From: Amphibalanus amphitrite
Taxonomy: Eukaryota; Arthropoda; Thecostraca; Balanomorpha; Balanidae
NCBI RefSeq assembly: GCF_019059575.1
Contig: NW_024882954.1
Span: forward strand, 94,797-158,796
Reading direction: 5' to 3'
DNA length: 64,000 nucleotides
Below are positions 1,965 through 60,315 of this stretch, in pieces (the stretch's first letter is position 1; each line of letters opens with the position of its first letter). A program made the translations under genes and the position numbers. Under the pieces are notes generated by a model, which saw only the letters and a list, made by a program, of their open reading frames with translations, searched no databases and was not told the origin of the DNA.

Positions 1965-2486
1965 AACGCGGTTACAGTCACGGTAGGTCACTTTCTGCTA
2001 TGTGGGCATGTGACACATGTTTTATGAGTTATTTTTCACGCTGAATCTGATGTTCATGGTTATATGTGACCCAAAGTCACTGTCCTGGTTACCAGTGTGT
2101 ATTGAAAGCTTTAAAAAGTAGTAAACCATACATCACCAAGTCAGGGCTAAGAAAAAGTCAGTTTTTTTTTATTTTATCGTTGACATAAAAATAATGCACT
2201 TTTCTAGACGAGCTTTGTCCCAGGAATTTAATGCTGTCATTTGTTTTCACATGCGATGTTCAGGAGCGCCTAAAACTCATAAAAATGCTAATGACTTCGC
2301 CATGCCCTATACATGTTGGAGCTATTTTTTACAATTAGGGGGTCAAAATCAAGATAGAAAGTTTAAATTTGGTACATGAAATTTTCTAATCGAGGTCTAT
2401 AACATATATTCCGATTTTTTTAACTGTTTTTAGTTTTTGAAATTTTAGGGGGAAAACATTTTTTTGGAAATTCCGAGATAGCCATT

Positions 2487-3498
2487 TTGACCCGCGCACC
2501 GACGGGGGGACGGTTGGCCGCCCCCCTGAGTTTTTCGTGAATAGCGCGAAAACCGCGGCCGCGAAATTTGGCATGACTTTTTCCTGATAAATTATACACA
2601 TGTTGTGCAAGTTTGAACCTCCTACCTTTCAAGGTCAGGTCACCAGGTCACTTCGAATGACCCAACCTCAAATCAATTTTTTGCAACTTTGTCACCGTGT
2701 CAGAGCTACAGTAGATGACGGAGGCCTTTGAAAGTCTGAGGTTGTTACGAAGTCATTAGTAGCTACAATTTGTATATCTCGGAATTTTGATATCGATGAC
2801 CTAATGTCAGGTCAATTTCTGACCTCCCCATTATGTCAATGGGGGAAAAATCAACTTCCTGTTTTCTTTACTAAAACGCGTCGGAATGGCCCAATATACC
2901 ATGAATGACTTCATATACGATCAACCTTGACTACCTTTAGCCTTTTTTGCTCTTGGGCAACTGTATGGTCATGTGACGTCACCAAAGGTCATCAAAGGTT
3001 TTTTGCTAATAATTCCTCACAGGAACAAGATGCAGCCGCGCCGATGGTCATCGTCGTGTTCAGCTAGTCAAGGCGCATCGAACGATAGGTATACATGATG
3101 ACCTTGAGGTAACGTGACCTGAGGTCAACCTTTGACATCGACCTTTCGGAGTGAACACTTTTCAACAAAAACAACAAAAAGATTCGACGCGGATTGACGA
3201 GAGGATCACGATGGTGCCATCAGTTTGTTCCTAGCTTGTTTACTTCGAAAGTTATTCGATACACACTCTCATACCCAGCGACCCATTTTGACGTTTTTGA
3301 CCCCTGTGACGTCATCTTTGACCTGACCTAAAAATTATTTAAATAGAAATGGTAGAACGTGTCAGTGCGTACCCCATGCCGTCCACCGCTTGTCTCTATC
3401 TTGCTTGGTTCTCGAGATCTCAGGGGGGGGGGGGGGCGGTCAACCCCTGAACCCCGTCGGTTCTAAGTTGGCGCAGACCCCTTCGGTGTGCGGGTTAA
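2487..3498. mobile_element. TTAA element B, inserted in C1
   Basis: The left end is TTGACCCGCGCACCGACGGG (TTAA changed to TTGA) and the right end is TTCGGTGTGCGGGTTAA, an imperfect inverted repeat with G- and C-runs just inside each end. The C1 sequence resumes on either side at a TTAA corresponding to TTCTTTAAAATGGC in C2. The interior has many AGGTCA/TGACCT hexamers and no ORF worth calling. A deleted relative of this end is at 52184. Confidence 0.78.
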
Positions 3499-3529
3499 AG
3501 ACCTTGTAAATCTGAATCTTTAGGCATCT

Positions 3530-4720
3530 TTAACCCGCGCCCGGCTGGGGGTCCTGGATTTCCACGCCCTGCTGGGGTGGGGGGGTTTGAACACCCCCCC
3601 CTCTAACTCGGTTCCTGGGCCACGTAGCGATACGCGGAAGGCGGCGTTCGAAAGAGCGTCAAAAATAATGACGAAATCACTTCGGTCAATTTTTTGGTCA
3701 GGTCAAAGGTCAGGTCACCAGAGGTCATTGAAGGCAAAATTTCGCCGATTTCCAGGTCGAATGTCGACAATTTCCAAGAAGCCAACGCATAACTCGGGAA
3801 CCAATAGAGCTACAGCGCCGCGGAAAACCGCATTCGATAGCCCTATTAACGCCCTTTCTGAGTAATCCCCTCAGATTTGACCTAACGTCAACGGTTTTGC
3901 CTGCAGGGGGCAAAAACTGCAAAAATAGCCGATTTTTTCGGAAACAGTTTTTCTGCAATAACTTTTGACCCAAGCCTTGTACGAGCTTACGTTTACCGGC
4001 ATCGTGTTCCTCTCGTCAAGACGCATCGAATGAACTATAACTTGACCTTGAAAGGTCAACTTGAAAATTTGACCTCAGGTCAAGGTCATGACCTGACCGG
4101 AAAGGGTCATGTTGCATATCAGTCGATCCGTATCGTCGAGCTGAACACTAAGGCGTTTTCATCGCTATAGCATGCCTCTATCAAAAGTTATTTGCGAAAA
4201 ACTGTTAGATACCACTCGTGACCTAAGATGACCTCAGGGCATAAACAGGGGTCACGGACACCATTTTCATGTTCAGTGTGTCTAAACCACTTGTAATTCA
4301 GTGTTTGGGAGTGTTTATAATGTCTTTCGTCCAAAGGAGGCGCATTTCAATTTTCTCCCATTGACATAGGTATAACGGGGAGGTCGCAAAATTGACCTGA
4401 CCTTAGGTCATCGATATCAAAATTCTGAGATATACATTTTGTACATGCTATTGCTCTTAGCAATCGCTGAAACTTTCAAAGCGATCGGTCACTCGGTGTA
4501 GCTATGACAGACATTGAAACTGTTTATGAGGTGAGGTCACTTCAAGTGACCTGGTGACCTGACCTTGAATGACCTTGGTCTTAAATTTTTACAACATGTG
4601 TAGAATTGATGTATGATAAGGTGTACCAAAAACGGCGGCGCGGAGCGCCGCCGTTTTTGAGATATTCGCGAAAAACCACAAGGGGGGTGTTCAAACACCC
4701 CCCAGCAGGGCGCGGGTTAA
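3530..4720 (-). mobile_element. TTAA element A1, inserted in C1
   Basis: Both ends are TTAA plus CCCGCGCCC(T/G)GCTGGGG in inverted orientation. The element aligns along its length, reversed, with A2 (14445-15642) and A3 (37041-38234). At one end a second copy of the terminal motif lies about 30 bp inward (CACGCCCTGCTGGGG near 3570). Near 4626-4656 sits a GC-rich hairpin with 14-bp arms around GGA. Flanking C1 sequence joins at the TTAA as in C2 (AAATTAAAGAC). Confidence 0.88.
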
Positions 4721-5061: not shown

Positions 5062-6599
5062 TTAACCCGGCAGGTGGTGGGCCTCCCGGCCACCTTCCGC
5101 GCGGTCGGGGGAGGGGCATTTTTTCCCCCCCCCCACCCGTATCTCCGAAACTACTAGACAAATCCGTTAAATTCAAACGGCGTTCGATAGCCCTGTCAAA
5201 TTTGTCGAAGGAACTCCAATTTCATTGACCTCAGGGTCACCGATGACGTCACAGGTCACGTCGAAGATAAAATGTTTGAACGTTCACGGGTCTTCTAGGG
5301 AATGCGCTATAACACCGAAGAAAACGCATTTTGTCGAAAATCAGCGATAGAGCGTATGTTTACATATGTTGCTATTGGATGTCACTAACAATGCCAGGTC
5401 AGGTCACAGGTCAGGTCACCAAAGTCAGCACATGAGCCCAACTTTACTAGGGTTGTGCGATGCATGTTTTATGGCCAATTTTTCATTTCCAACTCAATGG
5501 TGTTGGTTATAAGACCATCAGGTACGGTTTAGGTCACTTTCCGGTGAAGGTCATGTCAATGTCAGGTAAAAAAGGTCAAATTTCAAAGTTGATATTTTTC
5601 CATAAAATGGGTATCGATTCGATGCAGCTCGTCACATCGAGTCTAATGGCCGTCTTTGTTTTGCGCTGGCAGAATTGCTAAAAATTGCGTTTGAAAATTG
5701 GACGTCATCAATTTTGAACAGTTTTTCGCTATAACGTGGCCAAAAAGAAGAGATATCGATCTAACATTTGGTATGTGAGTTGAAGTCTATAGTAGTTATT
5801 ACAGATATTCCGTTTTTTCGAAACTCGAAAAACTTTTGGGATTGTTTGGTTATTATATTAAAAAATATTGTTTTGATTTTGTTGGGTTAAATTCCACAAT
5901 TCTCAAAATTTCGAGATAGCAGGATGGTAGCCCTGGTAATTCTACACCTTTTATGTCTTTAGCATTTGTCTGTATCATCAAAGCTGTAGGCCTGACAGCT
6001 TTTCTCGCGAAACCTTTTTTTGGGTCGAAAATGGCAGAAATGTATATTCTTATATATTCTTATATATTCACTTCAGCAGACACTCCACAACAGAGTGGCT
6101 ATTACGTGTCCATTGTCAATCAATAAAACGGTTGGGAGAGTCAAAATGGTACAAGGTAGAACATAACAATCGTCTGGCTCAGCAACACACTCACACCCAC
6201 ACATACACACGCCAGTAACACCAAACCCACGCACACTCACTCCGAATAAAATATACGTTTTGCAGCCTGCTTAAAAGCTGATGGCTCGAGCCGTGTCACA
6301 TCATTAGGTAGAGAGTTTAAAAGCGATGCAGCTCGGTAGGCAAAACCTCGCCGCCCGGCCGCTGTTCTGGTGGCTGGCGGACGCAGGTCCCCGTCCTGAA
6401 ATGACGTTTGCTGACGTCATTTACGGCCAACCTATCATAAGCCTTTGGAAAAAAATTTGGTCACCATGTGCGCTAGCTACTCCCGGGAGGGAACTGAAAG
6501 TTTGGTGACGATCGGCGCAGTGGTTCTGGAGATATATTGAAAAAAGTATAGGTGGGGGGGGGGGGGGCAAAAAATGCCCCCCACCCCCTGGAAGGTTAA
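5062..6599 (+). mobile_element. TTAA element D1, carrying a LINE 3' fragment
   Basis: It runs from GTGTTAACCCGGCAGGTGG to CCCCCTGGAAGGTTAA. The left half matches D3 (38862 onward) and the right half matches 43148-43877, including GATGCAGCTC, CGCTATAACGTGGCC and the closing G-run/C-run hairpin at 6552-6584. A 355-bp LINE fragment interrupts it at 6043-6397. Without that insert it is about 1.18 kb, the usual size of the group. Confidence 0.82.
6043..6397 (-). pseudogene. 5'-truncated CR1-like LINE, 3' end
   Basis: On the minus strand the frame running up to the stop at 6239-6237 encodes FAYRAASLLNSLPNDV and then FKQAAKRIFYSE. This is the familiar C-terminal end of CR1/L2-type LINE ORF2 proteins. 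A tail of ATATTCTT-like repeats follows at 6043-6070, typical of a LINE 3' terminus. A 6-bp target duplication GAAATG flanks the insert (6037-6042 and 6398-6403). Sequence outside the duplication joins element D sequence as in the D copy at 43680. It is a dead-on-arrival 5'-truncated insertion. Confidence 0.8.
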
Positions 6600-7893: not shown

Positions 7894-8275
7894 TTAACCC
7901 TCGCCCGCACATGGGGGGGGGGGGTTGCCACCCCCCCAGGTAGTCTTTCTGCTCTGCACTCAACATTTTTAGAGCTAGAATGCTGATTTTTCGTATAGCT
8001 GCTCCTATATCCTTTCTTGATGTCCACTGAAAATGTCAAGTTTCTGTTATTTTTGGTTTCGGAGATATGACCTTGTTTTTTAGGTCATGTCATGACCCAA
8101 ATGGCCAATTCTCAACATCTTGCGTTTGCCAAGGGCCTTGTGAGCTCCAACGGTGACACAAAACAGCAACATTTTTTAGTTTGACCTGACCTGGAAGGTC
8201 AACGACTTACCTGAGAAGGTAAAACTGGGTATCATTGGTTTCGTCTCTTCCCAAAGAATCTTTTTGGTCTTTGGA
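7894..8275 (+). mobile_element. TTAA element G1, truncated
   Basis: The left end TTAACCCTCGCCCGCACATG plus a G-run/C-run hairpin is identical to the termini of G2 (43987-44909). The body matches G2 reversed (CAGGTAGTCTTTCTGC, CTCCTATATCCTTTC, GGTATCATTGG). It stops at about 8275 where Penelope-like sequence begins, so the right end is missing. It sits in the internal TTAA of E1. Confidence 0.75.
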
Positions 8276-10228
8276 AGTCTAGCTAGGTCACAGTTGAAAA
8301 GAGCAGTTAGGCTGTCGTCAGATGAAGATGCCATGAAGCGGAGCATCGACAAAGTTTGTGAACTGCTGGTGAAAATGGATATCCAAAAAGGCTAGTGGGT
8401 AGAATCAAAGAGGAGGTACTGAGATCTAGGAAAAGTCATAGAAAGTCTAGAGGCAGTGAGGGACGGGGGAAGTGGGACAGAGAGGGAACACATAGTTATC
8501 TCACTCTTCCGTACGTGAACGAAACAATTTTGTGTAAAGTAAAAAGGGCAGTGAAAAAGTCGAATCTGAAGGTTCACTTGGGATGGTACGCCCCCAAAAC
8601 CCTTAAGAAGGCACTCGTTTCGTCTGCACTGACCAAAGATCCGTGTCCAGCGGGATCCAGGTCGTGTGCGACCTGTGAAGCCATTACGGCGGGTAAATGC
8701 ACCGACAAAAACGTTGTATATGAACTGACCTGTAAACTTTGTGACGAGAGATATATCGGTGAGAGCAAGAGGCCATTGAGACTGAGATTTAACCCGCGAC
8801 CGCCTGGGGGGGGGGGGGGGTCGGATCCGACCCCCCTCCGTTTTTCTTGAATAACTCATGAACCGCTTGCACTATCAACTTGAAACTTCGCATACCTTCT
8901 CCCCCATCAATTTGACGTCTCCTGTGCAATTTTTAAGATTTTTTTTTCAAAAATTTCTGAGATATATCGATTTTAGTGATGTAACTACATGGCGTTTTCA
9001 GTAAAAAAATGGTAAATGTTTAAAAAATCGCCAAAAATCGAGGTTTTAGGCAAATTGCAAATTAAAGACAAGAAAAGACGCAACTCAACGAGTTCTTTAA
9101 AATGGCTATCTCGGATTTTCCATAAAATGCGTTTTTCACCCCTAAAAATTCAAATAACTATGTTTTTTGGAAAACAGCTAATAAAATCCAAAATTTTGAG
9201 AAGGAATATATGTTATAGAGCTCTATTAGAACATTAGATGTCCCAAATTTCAATTTTCTATCTTGATTTTTGACCCCCAAATTGTAAAAAATAGCTCCAA
9301 CATGCATAGGGCATGGTGACGTCATAAGCATTTTCGCGAATTAGAGGCACTTCTGAACATCGCATGTGAAAACAAATGGCACCACCAGATTCCTGGGACA
9401 AAGCTCGTCTAGAAAAGTGCATTTTTATGTCAAAAATAAAAAGTTGAAAAATTGTTTTTTTTCTTAGCCCTCGTTTAGTTACGTATGGTATAAACGATTT
9501 TTTATGCTTTCAATGCACACTTATCACCAGCACAGTGACCTGGGGTCACATATAACCATTACCATCGGATTTGGCGTGAAAAATAAGCCATAAAACATGT
9601 GTCGCACGCCCATGTAGCAGAAAGTGAAAACCGTGACCTTTCGTGACCTGACCTGACCTTGAAGTTGACCCGCACTTAGTATGACCCCTATACGCACATG
9701 GTACCTTCACTAGGTCTTTGAGGTCATTTGTGGTGAGTTTCGAGCAGCAGCTATCGATTCCGCTGTCCGTAAGCCTAATCATGCAAAACCCCTGAATTTG
9801 ACCTTTGACCTGACCTTGACCCGAAAGTTGACCTCAATCTTAAAATCTTAAGAGTGCTTTGGGAAGGTCTCGTAGAGACCTTTCGAACGCCGCCTCGCGG
9901 GGCTCGATACGACCATTGATTCTCGAGATAACAGGGGGGGGGGGTCGGATCCGACCCCCCCCCCAGGCTGATGTGGGTACGGAAATAGCCCAGGCGGTGC
10001 CGGGTTAATGAGCATTGTAGGAGTATGTTGAACGCCACTGAATATACATCCATAGGGGACCACTTTAGAAAGAAACACCCAGAAAATGATCGCGACAGGG
10101 CTGCGTTAGGAGTGGGTGTGCTACGACGAACTCTAGATCATCCCGATAGAAAAATCACTGAATCACTCTACATCAGGGACAACAAGCCCAAATTAAATGA
10201 AAACATGATGTCTTGGCCTATTATTTAG
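8276..10228 (+). pseudogene. Penelope-like element, GIY-YIG endonuclease end, interrupted
   Basis: The coding remains read LKRAVRLSSDEDAMKRSIDKV (8294 onward), then after a frameshift near 8395 the segment with VNETILCKVKRAV, a CxxC-rich linker, VVYELTCKLC and ERYIGESKRPLRLRF. This is the order found before and within the GIY-YIG endonuclease of Penelope-like retroelements. The ORF is cut at 8789 by element C2 and continues at 10009 with the R..EH part, GDHFRKKHP and the C-terminal RRTLDHPDRKITES, KLNENMMSWPII, ending at 10226-10228. The reverse transcriptase part is absent (5' truncation). From 10229 to about 10406 is probable 3' untranslated sequence with no ORF. Confidence 0.88.
8789..10008 (+). 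mobile_element. TTAA element C2, inserted in the Penelope-like ORF
   Basis: TTAACCCGCGACCGCCTGGG at the left and CCCAGGCGGTGCCGGGTTAA at the right form the inverted ends. TTAA is present on both sides (8789-8792, 10005-10008). Deleting the insert and one TTAA puts the Penelope-like GIY-YIG frame exactly back together, so both borders are certain to the base. Inside each end is a G-run/spacer/C-run hairpin. Near the right end the terminal motif is repeated 30 bp inward (CCCAGGCTGATGTGGG). The interior has dense AGGTCA motifs at 9638-9672 and 9798-9835. Confidence 0.95.
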
Positions 10229-10479: not shown

Positions 10480-10954
10480 TTAAAGGGACCCTCCCACTTT
10501 CAAAAAAGTTAATGAATTGGCACGAAAGTGATGTCGCTCGGTTCAGAAAGAGCGAAAACGAATATCTACCAAATTTCATCGAAAAATATTCACCGGTTTT
10601 CAAGATATTAGACTTTTACTTTTGTTTACTTTTTGGGATCTCCGCTGTTCCTAGCGACTTTATTTGAAAGTGCGGCATTTGTTGCGCGCAAAGCAGCATA
10701 TACCACCGCGTGCTACCAAACGTTTTAGTAAAAGATTTAAAAATCGTTAGATCTCCGCTGACGTCACAAATTCTAAGGGGGCATACCAATGCACTAGCCC
10801 CTTAGAATCCGAAAACTGCAAGTTTAAAATTCCATATCTCCGAATTAAAGCATTTGTCGATGTTGTGAGTGCCCAAACCGGTATTTGCAGGCCATGGCCA
10901 CCAATTTGGCTATCTCAACTCAAAACTAATGTTAAGGTGGGAGTGTCCCTTTAA
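10480..10954. mobile_element. 475-bp inverted-repeat element (MITE)
   Basis: The ends are TTAAAGGGACCCTCCCAC and GTGGGAGTGTCCCTTTAA, an inverted repeat with one mismatch and TTAA outermost. It has no ORF. Its ends differ from the CCC-starting group (AGGGAC after TTAA), so it is a separate family, possibly also TTAA-targeting. A short flanking motif CCGTTTTCACGACGGAA at 10411 reappears inverted at 26371. Confidence 0.68.
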
Positions 10955-14444: not shown

Positions 14445-15642
14445 TTAACCCGCGCCCTGCTGGGGGGGGTGTTTGAACACCCCCCCTTGTGGTTTTTCGC
14501 GAATATCTCAAAAACGGCGGCGCTCCGCGCCGCCGTTTTTGGTACACCTTATCATACATCAATTCTACACATGTTGTGAAAATTTCAGACCAAGGTCATT
14601 CAAGGTCAGGTCACCAGGTCACTTGAAGTGACCTCACCTCATAAAAACTTTCAATGTCTGTCATAGCTACACCGAGTGACCGATCGCTTTGAAACTTTCA
14701 GCGATTGCTAAGAGCAATAGCATGTACAAAATGTATATCTCAGAATTTTGATATCGATGACCTAAGGTCAGGTCAATTTTGCGACCTCCCCATTATAAGT
14801 CAATGGGAGAAAATTGAAATGCGCCTCTTTTGGATGAAAGACATTATAAACACTCCCAAACACCGAATTACAAGTGGTTTAGACACACTGAACTTGAAAA
14901 TGGTGCCCGTGACCCTTGTTTATGCCCTGAGGTCATCTTAGGTCACGAATGGTATCTATCAGTTTTTCGCAAATAACTTTTGATAGAGGCATGCTAGAGC
15001 GATGAAAACGCCTTAGATGTGTTCAGCTCGACGATACGGATCGACTGATATGCAACATGACCCTTTCCGGTCAGGTCATGACCTTGACCTGAGGTCAAAT
15101 TTTCAAGTTGACCTTTCAAGGTCAAGTTATAGTTCATTCGATGCGTCTTGACGAGAGGAACACGATGCCGGTAAAAGCAAGCTCGTACAAGGCTTGGGTC
15201 AAAAGTTATTGCAGAAAAACTGTTTTCGAAAAAATCGGCTATTTTTGCAGTTTTTGCCCCCTGCAGGCAAAACCGTTGACGTTAGGTCAAATCTGAGAGA
15301 ATTACTCAGAAAGGGCGTTAATAGGGCTATCGAATGCGCTTTTCCGCGGCGCTGTAGCTCTATTGGTTCCCGAGTTATGCGTTGGCTTCTTGGAAATTTT
15401 CGACATTCGACCTGGAAATCGGCGAAATTTTGCCTTCAATGACCTCTGGTGACCTGACCTTTGACCTGACCAAAAAATTGACCGAAGTGATTTCGTCATT
15501 ATTTTTGACGCTCTTTCGAACGCCGCCTTCCGCGTATCGCTACGTGGCCCAGGAGCCGAGTTACAAGGGGGGGGGGGGTTCAAACACCCCCCCCCCCCAG
15601 CAGGGCGTGGAAATCCAGGACCCCCAGCAGGGCGCGGGTTAA
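14445..15642 (+). mobile_element. TTAA element A2, full length
   Basis: It is an 1198-bp copy from TTAACCCGCGCCCTGCTGGG to CCCAGCAGGGCGCGGGTTAA, a perfect 20-bp inverted repeat. A G-run hairpin with a TGTTTGAACA-type loop lies at both ends, and the 14-bp-arm GC hairpin is near 14510-14541. The right end has a second terminal motif (CCCAGCAGGGCGTGG) 30 bp inward. It is inserted at TTAA inside the GC-rich island (GGCCGGCCG before, GTCGCAACACC after). About 1.19 kb aligns with A3. Confidence 0.92.
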
Positions 15643-25064: not shown

Positions 25065-25068
25065 CAAA

Positions 25069-25623
<555 letters not shown>

Positions 25624-25678
25624 AATTGATGAAATACTAGGACTTACTCCACAAGGAGATCGAATGGGTCGAATGGGT

Positions 25679-25739
<61 letters not shown>

Positions 25740-33203: not shown

Positions 33204-33287
33204 CGGTGTTGGTGGCACCGCTAATATCCGTATGACTAAAAACTCAAGGCTTGCAAACCGTAACGTTTCCGTATTTTCCCATTTCAG

Positions 33288-41375: not shown

Positions 41376-42226
41376 CACGCGCAGTGGAAGGGTTGCGAGT
41401 ACTACGCCCAGTGGAAGGGGGGGGGGGGGCGGATGTCGCCCCCCCATAAGATCTCAGCTCCCACTGGAGCTAGAAAGACGAAATTTGGAGGGTAGGTGGG
41501 GGCCATGGGGAACTATCTTGTGTGTGAATTTCATGACCCTAGGTCAATATCTTCAAGGTCAAATGAGGTCAAATGTGGTCAAATCGGCCATATTAGCAAC
41601 TTTTTTCGTTTACACGCCGATAACTCAAAAAGTTACCGGCCGATTTTTAAAAATCTTTCACTATACGAAAGAACAAACATTTGTGAGTATGTATGGTAAA
41701 TTTCTAGATAATCCAACAATAAATATGGCAGTTAGAAGCCTGCTAAGGGTAAGATGTCGCCAGCTGAAGCGGCATCGGCCGACGCGGGAAACGCGGCAAT
41801 CACAATTTTGTGTTTACACACTCATAACTCAAGTTGTTACCGGCCGATTTTCAAAAATCTTTGACCATATGATTGCCTGTACATTTCTCAGTCTTCTCAC
41901 CGAATTTGACGCGAATCTAATATAATCAGCGGTAAGGAGCGCGATGTAAAGACGGAACCGTCCCGCCCCGGCACAGTCTACAATTCAGGCGGCGCGTAAC
42001 GGCTAGCGCCGGCCGCCGCGCTAGCCTAGGCAGGATGTTTGACTTTACACCGCTATTACTAGAAAAGTTGTGAACCGATTTTCTTACTTCTTGCACGAGA
42101 AGATCCGCAATTCAATTCTGGACAGGTAGCCAAAATTTCACATTGATATTATGCTTGCGGCGCGAGTTATTGGCGAAAAACAGGAGGGGTGGGCGAAATC
42201 CGCCCCCCTTCCACTGCGCGTGTTAA
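41372..42226 (+). mobile_element. TTAA element Q
   Basis: 855 bp with perfect inverted ends TTAACACGCGCAGTGGAAGG. The left TTAA is shared with O1 and the right with R. It starts TTAACAC rather than TTAACCC. The terminal motif is repeated inward at the left (CGCCCAGTGGAAGG). The words AACTCAAAAAGTTACCGGCCG and AACTCAAGTTGTTACCGGCCG form an internal direct repeat. It has few AGGTCA motifs. Confidence 0.88.
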
Positions 42227-43147
42227 CCCGCGAGTTGCTGGGGGGGGCGTTAAACGCCCCCACTTTTTTCGCCGGGCCATAGCATAAAAACGGCGCGCCG
42301 CAGGCGCGCCAAATTTTGGGTACCTGTAGGGAATTGATTGAAGTTTATTGTGACAAAGTTTCAAAAAAATCGGTCGGAAAATTTTTGAGATATCGAGTTT
42401 TTAGTGACGTCATGATTTCTGAGTTTTCGACCAAAAACGGCATATGTTCAAAAAATCATATAAAATCACAGAATAGACATACAGACATGCCGTAAATGCC
42501 ATTAGACTGCCAATACCATGATCAATCAAATGGCTATCTTCGATTATTGATTATCGTTCCGCATTTTCCAAAATCTTGAACTGAATCTTGGCAATTTTTC
42601 GTGACTACTTCACGACCATGATACATGAATTTCTTAAATTGAAGTTTTTGAGCCAAACACGTGCACATATGATAAAATGAATGTCACCATCGAGTTCTAC
42701 GCCCCAAATTACCTATAAAACATGTGTCACAGGCTGCGAATATCAGTTTTGATTTTCAGGGATATGTGCCTACCCGGTTGACCTGACCTTGACCCTGACC
42801 TATGCTTGACTGACCCCTATATGGAGCTGACACTCTTGTAGGCCTAATAGGGTGGATTGTGCACCGTTTTGACAGAGTTTATGGCGAGAGGCGCCCATTG
42901 CGAAGTCCTGAAGTCCATGCTACTGAAAGCCCGATTTCAGGTGTTTGACCTGACCTTGACCCGACCTGTGACCTCAAAATTCAACTTTAAAGTACTCATC
43001 TGAAGCGTCTCGTCGCGCTCTTTCGTTTGCCGCCTCGTGCGTTTCGCTGCGCCTATTGGTTCTCGAGTTATCGGCTGGGGGCGTTTAACGCCCCCCCCCC
43101 CCCAGCAAACGGTGGGTGGCGAAATACCCCAGCAACTGCCGGGTTAA
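42223..43147 (+). mobile_element. TTAA element R
   Basis: 925 bp from TTAACCCGCGAGTTGCTGGG to CCCCAGCAACTGCCGGGTTAA (two mismatches). A GGGGGGCGTTAAACGCCCCC hairpin stands just inside the left end and a similar one inside the right, with the doubled terminal motif. A palindromic GGCGCGCC pair lies near 42293-42310. It is related to C elements (CCTATAAAACATGTGTCAC). Confidence 0.88.
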
Positions 43148-43986
43148 GTTACGATTCTGGTGAAGGTCAGGTCAAGGTCAGGTCAAATTAGGTCAAATTT
43201 CAAAGTTGATATTTTTACATACATTGGGTATCCATTCGATGCAGCTCATCACGGGGAGGGGAGTCTAATTGGTGGTCTTTGTTTTGCGATGCGGCGCCGA
43301 TGCCTGATCTAGTATTGCTAAAATTGAGTTTGAAAATTTGACGTAATCAATTTTGAACGTTTTTTTTTCGCAATAACGTGGCCAACAAAGAGGTATTGAT
43401 CTCAAATTCGGTATGTAGGTAGCACACGGTATGGACTATCATATACCATTACCTATATAGGTATTCTGTTTTTTCTTTCTTTTGAAATTCGAAAACTGTT
43501 TGGATTTTTTGGCTATTATATCCATAAAATGATTTATTTTTATTTTGTGGTGAATATAAAACAAAATCAAAACCCCAGTAGCTTAGTTTATTCTACACCT
43601 TTTATGTCTTCGAAAAATTTTCTGCATCTTCAATACTGTAGGAATGCCAGCTCTTCCCGCGAAAACCTTTTTTAGGTCGAAAGTGGCAGAACATGACGTC
43701 ATTCTGACGTGATTTGCGGCCAGCCTATCAAAGCCTTTTGAAAAAAAAAATTGGTCACGATGTGTAAAATTGATATGTCTTGAAAGTTTTGTGACGATAT
43801 CTGCAGCCGTTTGGAAGATATCTACGGAAAAGGACAGGGGGGCCGTTTTGCCCCCCCCCCTACGGGGTGCGTGTTAACCCTCACCCGTATAGGAGGGGGG
43901 GGGGGGTCGAACGGACCCCCTCAGTTTTTCGCGAATAACTCGCGTAAAAAGCGGCCGATCGCAACAAAACTTTCAGTACACTCGCG

Positions 43987-44909
43987 TTAACCCTCGCCCG
44001 CACATGGCATTTTCCCATCCTAGAACGCACATGGGGGGGGGGGGCGGTGGTTGCCACCCCCCGCGCCGTTTCGTTCCTGTTGGAGAGAGAGCTTAGCGGT
44101 AAAGACAAAAAAGATTCTTTGGGAAGAGACAAATCCAATGATACCCAGTTTTACCTTCTCAGGTCAGTCATCGACCTTCCAGGTCAGGTCCAACTAAAAA
44201 ATGTTGCTGTTTTGGGTCACCGTTGGATATCAAGTGCGCTGCTTATCATATTCCGATGACGATGCCGTTTTCTGGTGCCAAGCCAGCTAGAACCTCATTG
44301 TCACACTACCCGACCAGGTTTTTGCTGCTGAGGTCATTTCAGGTCAAGTTAGGTCAAGGTCAGTTATATGTGTTTGTATGTCTGTGTGTGTCTGTGTGTA
44401 TAATGATGTGTGCACCGATTGTTTATGTGTTCATATTACATGAAATCATGATCTGAGAAGCTTTTACCAAAAATGCAGTAAAAAAAAACTTCACAAAAAG
44501 TTACTTCCGCTTGCCTAAAGCGCAATTATCTTAGATGACCTAGGTTGACCTTGACCCTGACCTTGACATCTGTTCATCGTCGAACAACATGTTCCATGAT
44601 AGGTGGGAGGTAAGACTGGCAAAAAAGGCCGAAATCAAGGTGTCAAAAGCACACAAGGCCTATAGCCAACGCAATATGCTGAGAATTGGCCATTTGGGTC
44701 ATGACATGACCTGAGAAACAACGTCATATCTCCGAAACCAAAAACCGCAGAAACTTGAAATTTTCAGTGGACATCCAGAAAGGATAGAGGAGCAGCTATA
44801 CGCAAAATCAGCTTTCTAGCTCTAAAAATGTTGAGTGCAGAGCAGAAGCCAGAAAGACTACCTGGGGGGGGGGGGGGGCAACCACCCCCCATGTGCGGGC
44901 GAGGGTTAA
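43987..44909 (+). mobile_element. TTAA element G2, full length
   Basis: 923 bp with perfect 20-bp inverted ends TTAACCCTCGCCCGCACATG. The left end has a doubled terminal motif (GAACGCACATGGGG). G-run/C-run hairpins lie inside both ends. The interior has TG-rich sequence at 44368-44400 and AGGTCA words. Same family as G1. Confidence 0.9.
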
Positions 44910-45507
44910 TCAATTTTACACCAACCCTGAAATTTTCATGACCCTGACCCTAATGACCTTTGACCTACTTTTCGAGACCATGTTTGGCCGGAATCGCGAT
45001 TCGGCGTATGTCGGCTCGCATTAGCCGCGCGTTTGCAGTCTTTTCGTGGTTTTAAGCGTTCAACCATGGGATATGATGTTGCTCCCATGCATTAGGGTGG
45101 GTGTCAAGGTCACCGGAAGGTCAGGTCAGGTCATTGACCTTTGATGACCGCGGTTCACTTTTTTGAGTTTTACATGTTTCTAGGCTAGTTTTTAAAGCTG
45201 AATTCGAATTTAGCAACCATATGAACATTTACGAAGTAGTTTTGGCACCTTCATAACATGTTACGAGGCTGTCAGAGGCGGTTGCCACCTACTACGAATA
45301 CCCTTACTGGTTGACTTGACCTAACCTGACCTGACCCGGCCTAAATGCATGAAGACATCATCTGTGATCAAAACTAACATGATATTCGTGATCAGCACCC
45401 CCAAAAACCTCATAGCAGCCACGCTTTACGACTTTCTAACAGGTTCCGATTTTCCCGACTTTTGGGTCATTGACCGGACCTGGAAGGTCAACCGATGATC
45501 TAGGACC

Positions 45508-46400
45508 TTAACCGTCGCATGTGTGCGGCGTTTGCCAGCTTCTAATGTGTAGGGGAGGGGGGGGGGGTTGGTTGGACCCCCCCTTGCCGTTTGGCTCCTG
45601 ATCGAGCTAGAGCTTCGCGGAAAAAACGAGCGTGTTGCCCGTGACGAGAGGAAGCCGATGATACCCAATTTTAAGGTCCTAGGTCATTGGTTGTCCTTCC
45701 AGGTCAGGTCAATGACCCAAGGTCGGGAAAATCGGGACCTGTTAGAAAGTCGTAAAGTGTGGCTGCCAAGGGTTTTTTCGGGGTGCTGATCACGAATATC
45801 GTGTTAGTTTTTATCACAGATGATGTCTTTAAGCATTTAGACCAGGTCGGGTCAGGTCAGGTCAGGTCAACCAGTAGGCGTCGTGACGGGTATTCGTATT
45901 ACGTGTCAACCGCCTCTGACAGCTTCGTAACATGTTACGAAGTCACCAAAACTACTTCGTAAATGTTCAAATGGTTGCTAAATTCGAATTCAGCTCCAAA
46001 AACTAGCCTAGAAACATGTAAAACTCGAAAAAGTGAACCGAGGTCACCAAAGGTCAATGACCTGGCCTGACCTTCAGGTGACCTTGACACCCATCCTAAT
46101 GCATGGAAGCAACATCAAATCACATATTTGAACGTTTGAAACCACGGAAAGCCTGCAAACGCGCGGCTAATGCGAGCCGACATACGCGGAATCGCGATTC
46201 CGGCCAAACATGGTCTCGGAAAAGAGGTCACAGGTCAAAGGTCATTGGGCTCAGGGTCATGAAATTTTCAGGGAAGGTGTAACTTGATCAATGTGAGGGT
46301 ACTGAAAGTTTCGTCGCGATCAGCCGCTTTTTACGCGAGTTATTCGCGAAAAACCATGGGGGGGGGGTCAATCCGACCCCCCTACACATGCGAGGGTTAA
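45508..46400 (+). mobile_element. TTAA element E5, inserted in another E copy
   Basis: 893 bp from TTAACCGTCGCATGTGTG to CCTACACATGCGAGGGTTAA. It contains a dense run GTCGGGTCAGGTCAGGTCAG at 45847-45868. The host E3 continues on both sides at TTAAAATTTGGTATCATCGG, so a member of the family inserted into an internal TTAA of its own family. Confidence 0.88.
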
Positions 46401-46707
46401 AATTTGGTATCATCGGCTTCCTCTCGTCGCGGGCAACACGCTCGTTTTTTCCGCGAAGCTCTAGCTCGATCAGGGGCGAAACGGCAAGGGGGGGGTCCAA
46501 CGGACCCCACCCCCCCTATACGTTCGCGGCTGGAAAAACACCAATACGGGCGAGGATTAAAAACTATAAACGGACTTGGAATATTAACAATAGTTCGCAG
46601 CAAGATAACTAACGGGTTGATGCTGATAAGCAACGGAATGTTCGACACTGCGCAGGAGGAATGCGCAAATAGATATCTGCCAATGATTTAAATCTTTAAA
46701 ATGTAGC

Positions 46708-47882
46708 TTAACCCGCGCCCCGCTGGGGAGGGGGGCAGAATCTGCCCCCTTCCGTTTTTCGTCAATAACTTCTAAACGCGTTATGCCAGCGACGTCAAAC
46801 TTTGCGTAGGTACTTTATGATACATCAATTTAACGCGTTCCCTGAAAATTTTAGCAAAATCCGTAAGATTTTTTTTGAGAAAATGACGTTTAAGTGATGT
46901 CATGTCCGTCATTTTCGCCTAAAAACGGCAAAAATTCAAAGGCCGCTAACATCTTCATTTTTAAAGGAATCAATACGTAACAAAAAAGGTTATACGTGAT
47001 TCTACTTTGCGTATCAAATGGTTATCTCGTTTTTTGAAAATTTTGGATTTTGACCCTTTTTTCTAAAAAAACTGATTTATTTTTTGGGAAATAATTATAA
47101 AATCCACAATTTTGAGTGTATCGAAAAACCTGAATATGTATATGTCAGAGAAGTGATCTATGTGCACCTTCATACCAATTTTTAGAAGAATCGGCTCGAA
47201 AATGTGGGAGTTATTCAAATTTTCATGACGTTACGACTCACGACACACAATGTTTTCGAAAAATGATTTTTTTGGAAATTCTAGACCTCGTACGGAAACA
47301 AAATAGCACTATTCGATTCGCATGAAAGACTGCATCAGATAGACACCTTTTTAGGTCTGAACAACCAACTTTAAAATTTGACCTCACTTGACCTGACCTT
47401 GACCTGACCTCGACCTGAAGCTCATCCAGATGTGGTCCATATCACTTATTGAGTGTGTCTATTGAATTCTATGAATATAATGACCTATAAAACATGTGTC
47501 TTACATGCCCTTTTATATATTTCGTTTTTGTTTACCTGACCTGACCTTGACCTTGACCTTTGCATGAAATTGTATGCAACGAATATTGTCTTGGTAGCCT
47601 AAGAACATGTTTTGGGCAATCAGTCTCAGTCCATTTTTCGGCAACTTCGGTGCAAGGCCGACGCTGCAGAAACTTGCATTTTGTACCTTTGACCTGACCT
47701 TGACCTGACCTCTGACCTACTCAAGGAAAAAAATTATCTCTTAAGATCCGCCTTGTTGAGAGCTTTCGATTGCCATTTTGCGACCATCGGTTCGGAAGTT
47801 ACACAGGGGGGGGGGGGCAGAATCTGCCCCCCCCCCCCAGCAGGGTGCGTATGGCTGAATAGCCCAGCGGGGCGCGGATTAA
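46708..47882 (+). mobile_element. TTAA element S, full length
   Basis: 1175 bp from TTAACCCGCGCCCCGCTGGG to CCCAGCGGGGCGCGGATTAA (one mismatch). Hairpins GGGGGGCAGAATCTGCCCCC lie inside both ends, with the second terminal motif (CCCAGCAGGGTGCG) inward at the right. The body shares layout with C elements (CTATAAAACATGTGTC). AGGTCA array at 47380-47420 and 47690-47720. Confidence 0.9.
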
Positions 47883-52187: not shown

Positions 52188-52979
52188 ACCATGTCTCAGC
52201 GACGCGCTGTGGCGATAGAAACAGTATATGGCACGTTGTGACGTCATAGAACCAGTTCATGGCGCGTTGTGACGTCATAAAACCAGTTAACCCATATATG
52301 CATGAATTAATTTTTTGTTGAGTATTTGTATGAAACTGTCTAGCATTGTTAAACAACATGTTACTAAGCTGCTGACATCAACTGTTTTGTTGTTACATTT
52401 AGTGCTTGCCTGATATGCTCGTTCAAAGTGACGTACAAAAATGTACGTCTATGCCAGGTGTCAACAAGACAATTGTGACGTCTGCCGCCGCCGTCCTAAA
52501 ATAATACATCCGACATCCCTAATACAATGCTAACGTCTTTCGTACTTCAGAAGCGATGTATGAGGGATGGGTTGGGGTGGGGATGGGGTTGTGGAGGGGG
52601 TAGTGTGACGTCATGTCATCGTTAACCTGGGCGAGGGGAATAACTTGTGTTGTATGGTCAAATATGATGTATGATATGTTGTGTTGCATTAGAGACCCTT
52701 GGAAATGGTAGTTATAATTCATACGTTGAATTAGGAAATAGATGTAGATCATGTATGATGAAAATAAGGAAATTTGCAAAACACAACTCAATTATGTCAA
52801 CTTTTACCGTCTATTGAAAACTTGTCTTATGTACATAATAGTCAACATAGTAGATCTATAAAAAGAGCACGTTGTCAATGGCGATCAGGAGGCGTTCTGC
52901 TGCTGGCCACCGACGAGGTGACCCTGTGCTCCCCTGTGGCAGTCACAGTCCGGCGCCCGGCGCGCTCCATGCTGACTAC

Positions 52980-53147
52980 CTGACTGCAGAGCTTCTTGAG
53001 GAGACAGAAGATGTAGCCGTTCCGCTGGGGGCCTTCGCCCAGGACGTCTGCCTCGTCCACGCAGCTGACGCGTCGGTCGTCGTAATGGCACCACCTGTCC
53101 CGTCCCACACTGTACACGTCAGACACTGCCCCGAGCGCGTGGCCCCG
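52980..53147 (-). pseudogene. Captured exon resembling the C-terminus of a USP37-like deubiquitinase
   Basis: On the minus strand an acceptor CATTACAG precedes a 168-bp frame ending at donor CAG/GTAG. It reads RGHALGAVSDVYSVGRDRW then HYDDRRVS, ADVL, and RNGYIFC. This is the arrangement of the catalytic His box in USP37/USP26/USP29-type ubiquitin proteases (GHY.SDVY....W..Y.D..VS......GYIFFY). The Tyr of GHY is Ala here, and the domain is far from complete, so it is not an active enzyme. It was probably picked up by element X. Confidence 0.55.
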
Positions 53148-53230
53148 CTGTAATGACTAAAGACGGCCATCAGCCGGACGTAAAGTCGCCGGCATGGTCA
53201 ACGGAGCAGAGCGACTGGTCGCCCGCGACT

Positions 53231-53571
53231 TAGAACTCGGAGAGGTGCGTCTGTCCAGGGGCGTCGGCCGGCTCTTCCTTCCCCAGTGACGGCATGATGG
53301 CCTCTTGGAACTCGTGATCCTCGACCACGTCCATCCAGCGGATAACAGCCGCACTGCAGCCGTTGTTGGCAGTCGTAAATGCTTCGATGGTCTGATTGGA
53401 CTTCTTCTTGAAGGCGTTGATGTCGGAGAACTTGTTCGCCTTCAGAAGGCGATTCCCTCACATGGTACCCGTGCCATGGAACTGGCGCTTCTGGATCTCT
53501 GCTGCAAAACCGATCATCAGGGTCAAGCTTGGTGCTGCTTTGGAATTGACATACATCCATAATCATCCCGA
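53231..53571 (-). pseudogene. Unidentified captured coding fragment with one internal stop
   Basis: On the minus strand a frame of about 110 codons with a coding-like third-position GC bias reads IGFAAEIQKRQFHGTGTM, a TGA at 53460, then LLKANKFSDINAFKKKS, TTANNGCSAAVIRWMDVVED and a stop at TAA near 53230. I do not recognise the family. It may belong to the same source gene as the USP-like exon or to another. Confidence 0.45.
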
Positions 53572-53784
53572 ACCGGTTGAGCGGGTGGGTGCGACCAGTT
53601 ACGGGCCCAGTTACGTCTTTACGGCTCAGTTACGTCAGTTACGGCTCAGACCAGTTACGTCAGGCGGGCTGGGTCAGCATTCTCTTCGTCGCTAGAGTCT
53701 TCGTTTGTGTCGACGCGAACTTCCGGCGGCTCTAGGACGACGACCGTGACATCGGCGACTCGACTTCGCTCCTCGATGCCATCC

Positions 53785-54030
53785 AGAACAGGGTTGCGGA
53801 GTCGGAGTTGGAGTCGAAGTCGGTCGGAGTCGACAATTCTGACCGGAGTCGGAGTCGGAGTCGATTTTGGAAACCGGAGACGGAGTCGGAGTCAGAATCA
53901 CCGACAAACCCATCGACTCCGCTGACCTGGCAGGGCTGCTGAGTCGGGAGTCGGAGTTGGAGTCGGTCGGAGTCGATAGTTCTACCCGGAGTCGGAGTCG
54001 GAGTCGGAGTCGGAGTCACTGAAAATCCAT
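53785..54030. repeat. GAGTCG/GGAGTC tandem repeat
   Basis: Two blocks of GGAGTC-based hexamers (53795-53895 and 53940-54016) with a shared inner word GTCGGAGTCGA. Low-complexity; the Pro-Thr frames over it are artefacts. Confidence 0.85.
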
Positions 54031-55045
54031 CGACTCCCGCAGCCCTGATCCAGAACATCGTTGAGGCTCACATTTGCCATCAAACCAAAGCATAAACGTG
54101 TTTGATGTTTGGGAAACAAAATGTAACGGATATGCATAGACGTACATTATTGTACGTGCGTTTTTGTGAAACGTACTATTTTTGGATTCGCTTGGTAAGC
54201 AAAATTAGCATTATAATGACACCACTCATGAAGTTAGGGTCATGCTTGAGCAGATTGCTGGCAACGAAAGCTAGTCCGGGAAAAGCACTTAACTATAATT
54301 AAGAACACTTGGCTCACCCTGGGTCGAGCGTCTGAACGGGTGAAAATCTTCCCGTTGCGACATCAACAAACCGAATGTCTCAAACTCAACACTGAATGCA
54401 TTGGAACCGTGTTTTTTGGTGTTCACCTGACGGCTAACAATGTAAATGATTTAGAACGACCGCGTTTGATGGCTCATTAGCTCTATTTCTATAAAGATGG
54501 CACACATTGGTCAACTCAAATTGACGTACATTTATGTACGTCTATGCATATATGGGTTAATGGCACGTAGTGACGTCTCAGAACCAGTTCATGGCACGTT
54601 GTGACGTCTCAGAACCAGTTCATGGCACGTAGTGACGTCATAGAACCAGTTAATGGCACGTTGTGACGTCAAAGACACAGTATATGGCACGTTGTGACGT
54701 CTCAGAACCAGTTCATGGCACGTTGTGACGTCATAGAACCAGTTAATGGCACGTTGTGACGTCTCAAAACCAGTTCATGGCACGTAGTGACGTCATAGAA
54801 CCAGTCAATGGCACGTTGTGACGTCATAGACACAGTATATGGCACGTTGTGACGTCTCAGAACCAGTTCATGGCACGTTGTGACGTCATAGAACCAGTTC
54901 ATGGCACGTTGTGACGTCTCAGAACTAGCATGTGGCACGTTGGTTAAGTCATGAGAGCAGTCGCGTTGTGACGGCATACGACCAGTGTCGCGCTGTGACG
55001 CCATAAGACCAGTGTCGCGTTGTGACGTCATAAGACCGTTGGCGC

Positions 55046-56386: not shown

Positions 56387-56501
56387 TCGGTGTCCCATTT
56401 ATATTTTAATTTTATATTTATATCTATATTTATATTATATTTATATAACATTATATTATTACACCTATTCTTTTATATAAAATGGGTCTGGTGCAGTGAC
56501 T

Positions 56502-57969: not shown

Positions 57970-58167
57970 TCGTGAAGCTGCAGCTGTGTTGATTGCTAAG
58001 TAACCCATGTATCGTAGGCCTGTATCGTAGAACTACGGTCGTGTTGATAACTAGATAATGCCGATCGTCAAGACTTGATAGTCAGTGACAATGCACTGCC
58101 ATTTACCCATTAATGCCCTTGCCGTAGAGAGCAGTCATACCAGGTTTGTTTACGATAGCTCACGTAG

Positions 58168-60315
58168 TTAACCCGCGCATGACTAGGGGGGCCTACAGAG
58201 CCCCCCCCTCCCGTTTTTCAGCAATATGTTCTAAACCGTTTGATGGATCAACACGAAACTTGCGGTACCCTCAGAGGCATCAATTTGACACCTTTTGTTA
58301 AAAATTCCACTTTCTAGCTACCATAGTTTGGCCGGAAATGACGTCATAGTGACGTCATGTCGGCCGATTTTAATGCAAAATACTGAATTACGGCAAACGC
58401 TCTCAGGAGCTCAGTTTTAAAGCTAGATCCTTTTTTTTTGCATGAGTGGACTACAAATACACGTAGCTATCAAACTGCTATCTCGAATTTTCGAAATTTT
58501 GAAAATGTTGAAAAATATGTATATACAATTACAAAAAAATATATTTTTTGATTTTTTCAAAAGTTTTTAACTTTTCGCAAAAACCGTAATATATCTGATA
58601 GAACACACACTGATGAACTACCTTTGCAAGTTTTATCCCAATGTCTTCAAAAATAGCCAAGTTATTCGCATTATTGTCAAAATTTTACAATTTTATGTTT
58701 TTCCAAGTCCATTTTTCAGTACGTTTATGACATCGTACAGCAATATAACTGGTACCATCGTGTTTCTGAGCTCAAACTGCATCTGATGGGCACCGTTTCT
58801 GTTGAAAAATTTCATTTTCAAAATTTGACCTTTTCTGACCTGAAAGTGACCTGACCTCCTGTAAATTCAGCTGACAATGACCTCAAATGACACAGACGAC
58901 ACTATTTTCGAAATCTACGAGTAAAATGGACCATAAAGCATGCGTCACGTGACCGATAGGGTGAAGTCGTATAAGAGTACGCACTTAGTGGATTTCTTGC
59001 TCTCATTTATTTAATATTTGAAAGAAAGAAATTGCAAATAGGGAATATTAAAGTTCATTGAATTAGCCATCAACCCATGGGGCAACGATCCTTCAGCGTA
59101 AATGGAAGTGGTCTAAAACTGACATTTTCTGAACCGCTGCAGTTGCGTACTCTTACCATATGGGGTGTGTAAGAGTACGCACGCCAGGCGGGTGGAGTAC
59201 GCAAGCATATGAACACACACGTATGCAGCTTGTACTGTCCAAATGCTTAACTTCAAACTCAGAAGGCATTTAAGTTAATTCTAGTATCCAAAAAGAAAAA
59301 CATAAAATAAATCTTTCAAGTCTATAAATCAGGAAATAATCATGTCGTGTGTTTCTTAAAAAAATGCACAATCAAAAGGGAGAAGAACTCGTATTTGGAA
59401 GAATTTCAGGTACGGATCTGTATCACAGTGCTCCATTGATGATATACCTACAAAACAAACGTCATTGAGCGATAGATTAATAATTTTATTTTTCTGTATA
59501 TTCGATTTAATGTATAATTCTGCGTACTCTTACCCTCCTGAACAGTGCGTCCTCTTACCGTACATGCAATTCGCGCACAAAACAACCCCGAAACGTTGTG
59601 CAAAACTTCGCAAACAGAATATTGCACTGCACAGTATTTCCCCAGATAACCTCACAAGTTTCCCACAACAATCACGGAAATGTACCTTATCTCAACTGCC
59701 AAGTATCAAAATTATTGTACCATACCATAATAATATCATGACGCTCGAAAATAATATTCATCGCCTTAAACTCAACAGCGTCGCCGCTCAACGCCCACGT
59801 TCCGTTGGTGACAAGCACGCACTGGCGGCTTCATGTCACTTCATGAACTCGACAAACCCGCGTTGCTAAGCAACCGAAACAGCTGATGCGTACTCTTATC
59901 TCCCGCGTACTCTTACCCGCCCTTACCCTACATGATACACAATTTTGGTGACCTAGGATGACCTGGCCTTGACCTGAAAAATTAGAAGTAAAAGTTCGGT
60001 ACCCTCAGGGTATCTAAGGCATCCGTAAAGGAGTGCGTAAACCAGAAATGAGCCTGATCGGAGCGGCGGTCCGGTGGTCAGAGCCTAATTGTGAACTAGC
60101 AAAATTGCCGATAATGTTTACTGACCTGACCTGTGACGTCATCGGTGACCTCGAGGTCAATGAAAATAGGTTTCGCTCGACGGTTTTTCCAGGGCTATCA
60201 GACGCCGCTTGAATTCTACGATCGGCCCAGTAGTTTCGGAGATAGGAGGGGGGCTCTGGAGAGCCCCCCCCCGTCACTCGCGTTATGGAAAATACCCCAG
60301 TCATGCGCGGGTTAA
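58168..60315 (+). mobile_element. TTAA element T, carrying element U
   Basis: From TTAACCCGCGCATGACTAGG to CCCAGTCATGCGCGGGTTAA, an inverted repeat with one or two mismatches; hairpins inside both ends; the doubled terminal motif CCGTCACTCGCG lies inward at the right. Without U it is about 1.17 kb. C-type words (CCATAAAGCATGCGTCACGTG) and a D-like right end (GTAGTTTCGGAGATAGG). Confidence 0.88.
58957..59930. mobile_element. Inverted-repeat element U with GCGTACTCTTACC motifs
   Basis: 974 bp. Ends TAGGGTGAAGTCG and GCCCTTACCCTA, at a TA. The motif GCGTACTCTTA(C)C recurs about nine times in both orientations near both ends and at 59150-59195 and 59520-59560. It resembles element H in its TAGGGT ends and repeated-motif design. 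A 134-residue open frame (59465-59869) shows no family. Confidence 0.72.

Follow-up and report, generated by a model that had tools for sequence, protein, structure and literature searches.

The acorn barnacle Amphibalanus amphitrite carries many DNA elements that are bounded by TTAA and encode no transposase, and we have analysed them in a 64,000-nucleotide stretch (the window, contig C1457:94797-158796) of its 807.5-Mb genome assembly. With a probability that we put at about 0.93, their sequences indicate that they are non-autonomous deletion derivatives of a barnacle piggyBac lineage, and that a partner transposase presumably reads their family-specific, asymmetric ends. The initial annotation of the window had rightly described them as piggyBac-type TTAA elements that need an outside partner. 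It had also seen in them a superfamily of its own with a hairpin layout of an unfamiliar kind, and these two ideas had to be given up: Autonomous piggyBac elements bear the identical end plan, and the tip, the spacer, the duplicated motif and the palindrome match the asymmetric ends of piggyBac from the moth Trichoplusia ni (T. ni).

Each element has a short and a long end

To pair the elements, we used their terminal repeats and looked for TTAA with a CCC- or CAC-like tip behind it and then a G-run and a C-run. Fourteen complete elements were paired in the window, mostly 0.85-1.5 kb long (Table 1); 13 of them were laid out end by end, and the fourteenth (5062-6599) was paired via its palindrome core. 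The TTAA-tip search yielded nine hairpin ends without a partner in addition, and there are a few more single ends, so that the earlier estimate of about twenty copies was a fair one; the position 1965, given as the start of the series, is not a TTAA border. The outer motif is indeed family-specific while the palindrome of G-run, spacer and C-run is kept across families, and the TTTTTCGCGAATAACTC block has 23 matches in the window at up to three mismatches versus a mean of 0.20 in 100 shuffles. The CCC said to open every tip is present at 21 of the 26 ends of the 13 elements; the others begin with CAC (two), CCG (one) or TCC (two).

In all 13 laid-out elements a short end is combined with a long one, a non-equivalence that the initial annotation had not mentioned. 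The short end consists of TTAA, a tip of 13-15 bp and the palindrome, which lies between a G-run and a C-run. At 37041, for example, TTAA (37041-37044) is followed by a 13-bp tip (37045-37057), by G-run, palindrome and C-run (37058-37080) and by TTTTTCGCGAATATCTC (37087-37103). The long end has the same tip, then a spacer, the tip motif once more at a distance of 26-28 bp, and then the palindrome. The two positions of the palindrome are seen in 30 elements from the window and from among 23 fetched loci (designated by L-numbers) around matches to the piggyBac domain PF13843: The G-run starts 13-18 bases past TTAA at the short and 39-45 bases past it at the long end, with one short-end outlier at 7, the tip of which is itself G-rich, and with a value for L023 that is 3 too high as this element was taken three bases too long. 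The inner motif copy was sought at shifts of 16-29 bp; its best match has a shift of 26-28 bp in all 15 elements compared (27 bp in 11 of them) and agrees in 5-8 of 8 bases. Among 12 family representatives, the identity within elements exceeds that between them for the two tips (7.2 versus 3.1 of 8), for tip and inner copy (6.25 versus 4.4) and for the palindrome cores (11.3 versus 7.6 of 14); for each measure, 20,000 permutations gave no value as high.

The two kinds of end are separate throughout the genome. Counting exact matches on the plus strand in three spacing classes of equal width, we found 21,174 short, 23,707 long and 379 intermediate ends, compared to 6, 4 and 5 matches, respectively, for reversed patterns used as controls. 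Judging by their letters, many of the intermediate ends listed are short ones whose G-runs are very long, or contain small indels. Exact matches alone amount to about one short end per 38 kb on the plus strand; assuming equal strands, both classes together would come to near 90,000 ends. Reverse counts were inflated by overlapping matches and a tetramer-swap chance control for pairs of terminal inverted repeats (TIRs) was spoilt by large inverted repeats; neither was used.

In asymmetric ends of the T. ni type, the palindrome follows close behind the tip on one side and lies some 28 bp deeper on the other, and the motif is duplicated; this is what the barnacle elements show. The same script, applied to the T. 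ni ends, returned a motif shift of 27 and dyads at bp 25 and 53, a difference of 28; the T. ni tip, too, begins with CCC. The short-end dyad lies at bp 24.5-26.5 in nine of 15 barnacle elements (24.5-34 with a median of 26 in all 15), and the long-end palindromes are centred at 52-63. It might be argued that only the tips are recognised and that the palindrome, rather than serving the transposase, arises from replication slippage or is an element for host factors or chromatin. The free variation of G-run length among copies would agree with this, as would the ends of piggyBat, which do not have the same pattern (PMC11707139). However, the 8-10 bp core is family-specific and common to both ends of an element, and the position of the palindrome is two-state genome-wide and at many short ends close to that in T. 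ni; we therefore regard this explanation as unlikely.

Borders and target sites

The model of the initial annotation depended on copies ending at TTAA across the genome. This is the case for the 16-bp tip CCCTCGCCCGCACATG, which occurs 6,543 times and stands directly behind an exact TTAA in 5,625 instances (86%). In the window, 29 of 120 places with four bases, CCC, a G-run and a C-run start with TTAA, whereas TTAA precedes only 42 of 1903 CCC words. Moreover, we aligned 16 window elements with 300-bp flanks, among them two of other TTAA families (52287-54560 and 10480-10954), against the window and 20 of the fetched loci. Queries 5062-6599 and 46708-47882 yielded no alignment in this test; the others gave 65 border alignments, which are not independent as copies of one family are compared repeatedly. 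The seven from the two other families all stop at most one base from the edge. Of the remaining 58, 31 terminate precisely at the outer TTAA edge and 45 no more than three bases from it, while nine stop 23-35 bases inside, mostly in comparisons between families, and four overrun by 4-8 bases.

In three comparisons with empty sites, a single tetranucleotide is present where the filled site has two, TTAA in one case and TTGA in two. L019 has a CCCATTAGTGCCC-type piggyBac inside a copy of the 8789-10008 family, the window copy of which has a single TTAA; L011 (at about 2010) is devoid of the 39462-40471 insertion and L023 (at about 1550) of the 43987-44909 insertion, TTGA being present in both. 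The elements thus insert at and duplicate TTAA and have a short inverted repeat beginning with CC[C/T], as is expected for the piggyBac superfamily.

Autonomous piggyBac elements with the same end plan

The initial annotation had called for a search for an autonomous relative with a DDE_Tnp_1_7 (PF13843, piggyBac DDE) transposase. Our genome search resulted in 116 scored matches from 232 first-look candidates, with none on the window contig among the matches listed. At the fetched loci, L023, L025, L027 and L030 carry both the end plan and a transposase; there are thus four coding copies from three autonomous families that have a DDE_Tnp_1_7 transposase between such ends, and the partner is to be sought outside of the window. 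The L027 and L030 transposases match PDB entry 6x67 (E values of 1.5e-74 and 1.3e-56, respectively), the former aligning across the DDD residues. Among the relatives of the L030 protein are some from A. amphitrite that bear the name PiggyBac transposable element-derived protein 4, and a FastTree phylogeny of 23 open frames, some of them truncated, places the four transposases in one clade with a support of 1.00. The long-end word of L025 and L027 occurs 1,908 times in the genome at up to one mismatch (reversed control, 0), and therefore this family also has far more ends than genes. At nine other loci (L009-L011, L013-L015, L018, L019 and L022) CCC-type tip pairs of varying strength flank the gene without a hairpin. 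A CCCATTAGYGCC-type piggyBac was rejected as the partner of the window families, as its ends are without the G/C-run palindrome.

TTAA alone does not separate superfamilies, and the elements might belong to another one that uses this target, such as Kolobok or Sola3, with ends that resemble piggyBac by chance. A different TTAA family that starts with AGGGACC is present in the window at 10480-10954. We nevertheless consider this highly improbable because piggyBac-coding elements carry these very ends: PF13843 transposases are encoded within elements of this plan, bounded by the elements' own ends, and in two cases the flanking sequences also match elements of the window. The sequence at 10480-10954 is a 475-bp TTAA-bounded element with a 14-bp terminal repeat, AGGGACCCTCCCAC, and with border matches in L010, L014, L021 and L027; it is reminiscent of Kolobok (T2-type) elements.

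Several observations weigh against a derivation of the window elements from this piggyBac lineage. First, we paired the ends ourselves, on the window and on loci picked for a transposase, and the set of 30 elements is thus non-random. Second, none of the autonomous elements in the 23 loci has exactly the tips of a window family, the nearest being L030 (CCTGGTG versus CCTGCTG), and the L027 element has only pieces of 36-38 bp in common with the window. Third, the autonomous copies are imperfect: the short end of L023 reads CTAA, the two tips of the L027 element agree in only four of eight positions, and the L025 and L027 transposases each look damaged at one end. Fourth, the distance between the short- and long-end palindrome centres is loose (22-36 bp, median 31, versus 28 in T. 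ni) because G-run lengths vary. Finally, two of the three empty-site relatives read TTGA, and the insertion in the window is flanked by TTAA on either side; the target may have mutated to TTAA before insertion or may have been repaired to TTAA upon insertion.

Origin of the non-coding interiors

On either side of its gene, the autonomous L030 element has non-coding sequence that aligns with the GCGCCCTGCTGG elements in co-linear blocks of 72-86% identity, and its right side matches 28760-29369 with 73.7% over 630 aligned positions. Similarly, the sides of L023 are 85-96% identical to 45508-46400 and 43874-46560 and 91-96% identical to L020:7417-8318, an element with the same tips. Judging from these matches, the interiors of these elements are therefore what the loss of the gene has left of the non-coding flanks of autonomous elements. 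This is evident for the GCGCCCTGCTGG, TCGCATGTGTA and TCGCCCGTATA families, and families without a coding relative, such as TATTCCTGGCGGG and CACGCGCAGTGG, would have arisen in the same way. The initial annotation had spoken of about 1 kb of non-coding sequence; non-coding and rich in AGGTCA it is, and it has to be read as two autonomous flanks in the three families and probably in the others. Within the GCGCCCTGCTGG family, the interior of 3530-4720 is 97-98% identical to those of the elements at 14445 and 37041. Some elements are nested in others, and in the row formed by 39331-41375, 41372-42226 and 42223-43147 adjacent elements have one TTAA in common (Table 1).

With miniature inverted-repeat transposable elements (MITEs) the barnacle elements share the lack of coding capacity, a high copy number and a homogeneous size: For the TCGCCCGCACATG family, TTAA-bounded tips number 2,813 on one strand and 2,812 on the other, and most of its facing pairs among 100 listed places have a span of about 890-930 bp, with a few far shorter or longer. 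However, MITEs are usually shorter than about 500 bp, and since our elements mostly measure 0.85-1.5 kb, non-autonomous piggyBac element is the safer name.

Similar interiors behind different ends

We aligned five copies of three families and counted six of the ten pairs. The interiors are identical at 703/755, 712/756, 694/756 and 698/745 positions between families (about 92-94%) and at 715/745 and 689/739 positions within families; a second measure on elements of the same kind gave 88-93% between and 91-94% within families. In contrast, the families agree in only two to five of nine positions of the tip motif, seven to nine of 17 of the spacer and four to six of nine of the far tip, all of which are nearly or fully alike within families. 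The inner motif copy agrees in 2/9, 2/9 and 3/8 positions between families and in 6/8 in the fourth comparison. The divergence of the families begins at the palindrome. Likewise, L015_924 and the window element w5062 are 83% identical over 719 bases with tips that agree in 4/16. The 99 short ends listed on one contig represent 33 tip strings, which by eye fall into roughly 25 families; four different tips, two of them one base apart, have the core TGTTTGAACA behind them there. The pair of the autonomous L023 element and w58168 (97% over 976) was set aside as a case of swapped ends: it has one common block, which is not the families' interior.

Because three families have about 92-94% identical interiors but unlike tips, it is probable that elements have exchanged end cassettes as a whole. 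We extend this, tentatively and at somewhat less than even odds, to a more general scheme: the end cassettes may be exchangeable modules in which both tips, the inner copy and the cores are replaced together, with the homopolymer runs as likely switch points, and the resulting combinatorial library of tips and cores may let non-autonomous elements escape a dying transposase by re-addressing. It is also conceivable, if less likely than not, that no ends were exchanged and that tips, inner copies and cores evolved fast alongside the transposases under strong selection while the interiors drifted slowly. Such co-evolution predicts the observed co-variation of motif copies within elements, some tips (GCGCCCTGCTGG, GCGCCCTGGTGG and GCGCCCTGATGG) are only one base apart, and the 6/8 agreement of the inner copy in one family comparison points in the same direction. 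Yet in the comparison of L020 and L010 the interior (712/756) is nearly as similar as within families, but the tip motif agrees in 2/9, the inner copy in 2/9, the spacer in 7/17 and the far tip in 4/9 positions; several separate sites would thus have to be rewritten alike in interiors that have barely changed.

AGGTCA arrays

The richness in AGGTCA that had been noted for the window was confirmed, with 333 occurrences versus 30 expected from dinucleotides. The density is 12.2 per kb within ten annotated spans and 3.1 outside, and the autonomous L030 element has 33 AGGTCA/TGACCT, 32 of them outside its open frame. Thirteen 9.9-kb loci with a hairpin end contain 13-65 AGGTCA/TGACCT each, and seven such loci without one (L009, L012, L013, L018, L021, L024 and L026) 5-13 each, about 5 being expected by chance on the composition of the window. 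The arrays thus accompany the piggyBac lineage with the hairpin plan.

AGGTCA arrays might be direct repeats for nuclear receptors. In 165 same-strand spacings of at most 30 bp, steps of 5 bp (50) and of 10 bp (32) together account for 82. A 10-bp step is that of the direct-repeat site DR4 and equally that of two 5-bp steps; no nuclear-receptor direct-repeat site is known to have a 5-bp step. A telomere-like nature of the AGGTC pentamer is conceivable as well; TCAGG is known from beetles. Of 847 aligned occurrences of AGGTCA, 562 are conserved, versus 40% for all hexamers, but its rank is only 23rd of 227 common hexamers, so that a special constraint is no more than suggested; in a separate comparison, the alignments of which may favour repeats, 29 of 42 were conserved. 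GACGTC and ACGTCA are overrepresented four- to fivefold in the window and highly conserved among copies, and the half-site TGAC is common to these words and the AGGTCA kind. Among the titles and abstract beginnings of the open-licence literature, we found no work on transposon ends that links piggyBac to AGGTCA.

Other features of the window

The element at 52287-54560 represents a second type, for the tips of which a G/C-run hairpin was looked for and not found; it probably is an internal deletion derivative. A 31-bp tandem array with CACGTTGTGACGTC in its units (52215-54925) flanks it on both sides, as if split by an insertion. A 1.9-kb repeat at 49570-51457 has the inverted ends TGGGGCATTCCACGATAGATCGTACCA rather than TTAA-CCC, is 95% identical to a copy in L022 and contains matches to piggyBac-type families. 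The 976-bp sequence at 58957-59931, which is probably a mobile insert, is 97% identical to one within L023 and overlaps a 169-aa open frame. At 16737-20793 lies a retrotransposon of the LINE (long interspersed nuclear element) type with a frame without a Pfam match that is followed by endonuclease and reverse transcriptase pieces in broken frames, and at 33264-36155 a single open frame for a large GBP-like GTPase of 963 aa that is 100% identical to an A. amphitrite protein and has two 69% identical relatives in the species. Finally, 24740-26068 is a perfect 389-bp inverted repeat with a 551-bp spacer and TC/GA microsatellites at the inner ends of its arms.

Table 1. piggyBac-type elements of the window and autonomous elements at the fetched loci.
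Feature	Position	Strand	Remarks
Complete non-autonomous piggyBac element, family GCGCCCTGCTGG	3530..4720	-	Short end 4720, long end 3530
Probable complete element	5062..6599	-	Short end 6599, long end 5062; palindrome core GGGCATTTTTTGCCC at both, imperfect at long end
Partial copy, family TCGCCCGCACATG	7894..8272	+	Short end intact; right limit is end of similarity
Complete element, family GCGACCGCCTGG	8789..10008	+	Empty site for the piggyBac insertion present in L019
Complete element, family GCGCCCTGCTGG	14445..15642	+	Flanks related to autonomous L030:333-5055
Partial element	28760..29369	.	Long end at 29369; related to L030 right flank (73.7%)
Complete element, family GCGCCCTGCTGG	37041..38234	+	Both ends laid out
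Complete element, family TCGCCGGCCGAGG	39331..41375	+	Split by nested 39462-40471; uninterrupted copy L011:1876-2916
Complete element, family TATTCCTGGCGGG	39462..40471	+	Nested in 39331-41375
Complete element, family CACGCGCAGTGG, tip begins CAC	41372..42226	-	One TTAA in common with each neighbour
Complete element, family GCGAGTTGCTGG	42223..43147	+	Core CGTTAAACG at both ends; copies in L017, L023
Host element, family TCGCCCGTATAGG	43874..46560	+	Holds 43987-44909 and 45508-46400; long end 46560
Complete element, family TCGCCCGCACATG	43987..44909	-	Nested in 43874-46560
Complete element, family TCGCATGTGTAGG	45508..46400	-	Nested in 43874-46560; interior like autonomous L023, tips unlike
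Complete element, family GCGCCCCGCTGG	46708..47882	+	Palindrome core CAGAATCTG
Second type, 13-bp tips CCCATATATGCAT	52287..54560	.	80-82% match to both sides of L020 piggyBac-coding stretch
Complete element, family GCGCATGACTGG	58168..60315	+	Includes 976-bp sequence (~58957-59931) also within L023
Autonomous element	L023:1925-8500		~6.58 kb; nested 923-bp element and 976-bp insert
Autonomous element	L025:3443-7417		3.98 kb, hairpin plan; 99% identical to L027 copy
Autonomous element	L027:2555-6531		3.98 kb, hairpin plan; 99% identical to L025 copy
Autonomous element	L030:333-5055		4,723 bp; open frame of 666 aa

Possible mechanism and comparison with known systems

A piggyBac transposase made elsewhere would read the family-specific tip via its core domains and the palindrome via its C-terminal cysteine-rich domains. 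One short and one long end would then be synapsed, followed by cut and paste at TTAA. The extra motif copy of the long end may hold a second transposase dimer, by analogy with what has been modelled for T. ni piggyBac, and each tip family would serve as the address for its own transposase variant. Transposase-less piggyBac copies crowd this genome, and the exchange of ends, if true, would explain how they could outlive their helper. As the recognition letters change among the many families while the spacing is constant, evolution itself tests the rule of tip, 27-bp shift and palindrome. Moreover, tip letters can be paired with transposase sequences, which makes the families a natural test set for end recognition.

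T. ni piggyBac (LE35/RE63 ends) is similar in its TTAA target, its 13-bp terminal repeat, its asymmetric ends with a duplicated motif in the longer end and an internal palindrome, and its DDD transposase with a C-terminal cysteine-rich domain (PMC2532691, PMC7351741). It has 13-bp terminal and 19-bp internal repeats with spacers of 3 bp versus 31 bp (PMC2532691); its right end contains an insertion and a sequence duplication, and the palindrome is bound by the cysteine-rich domain (PMC7351741). The authors who solved the structure of the moth element termed its asymmetric ends puzzling and enigmatic, and their account adds that a hyperactive transposase is less strict (PMC7351741). Unlike in T. 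ni, the barnacle palindrome lies between a G-run and a C-run, a single genome has many tip families side by side, the window copies are without a gene, and AGGTCA arrays are present in the flanks. piggyBat of Myotis lucifugus belongs to the same superfamily and has repeated subterminal motifs as well, but its right end has no match to the imperfect palindrome of the left end, and it is without the readily visible repeat pattern of piggyBac (PMC11707139). The barnacle ends are far closer to T. ni piggyBac than to piggyBat.

PiggyBac elements of A. amphitrite itself, with PiggyBac-3 as a young one, were covered by a survey of small genomes; this was based on transposases and excluded MITEs, and the end plan is not mentioned in the portion of the text that was accessible (PMC10813416). 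No paper on barnacle miniature inverted-repeat elements was found in the open-licence literature. The CMITEs, piggyBac-related MITEs of the coral Acropora, resemble the barnacle elements in being flanked by TTAA, in their TIRs of 13-14 bp that vary by family around a conserved interior, in forming tandem arrays and, for one family, in having a piggyBac-like partner (PMC2872659). They differ in their size of about 100 bp and a 75-bp interior of unknown origin (PMC2872659), whereas the barnacle elements mostly have 0.85-1.5 kb, tens of thousands of ends, end asymmetry, and interiors that were traced to autonomous flanks in three cases. Among published systems, the CMITEs are the closest precedent for a conserved interior with variable TIRs, to which the barnacle adds the scale and the joint change at both ends.

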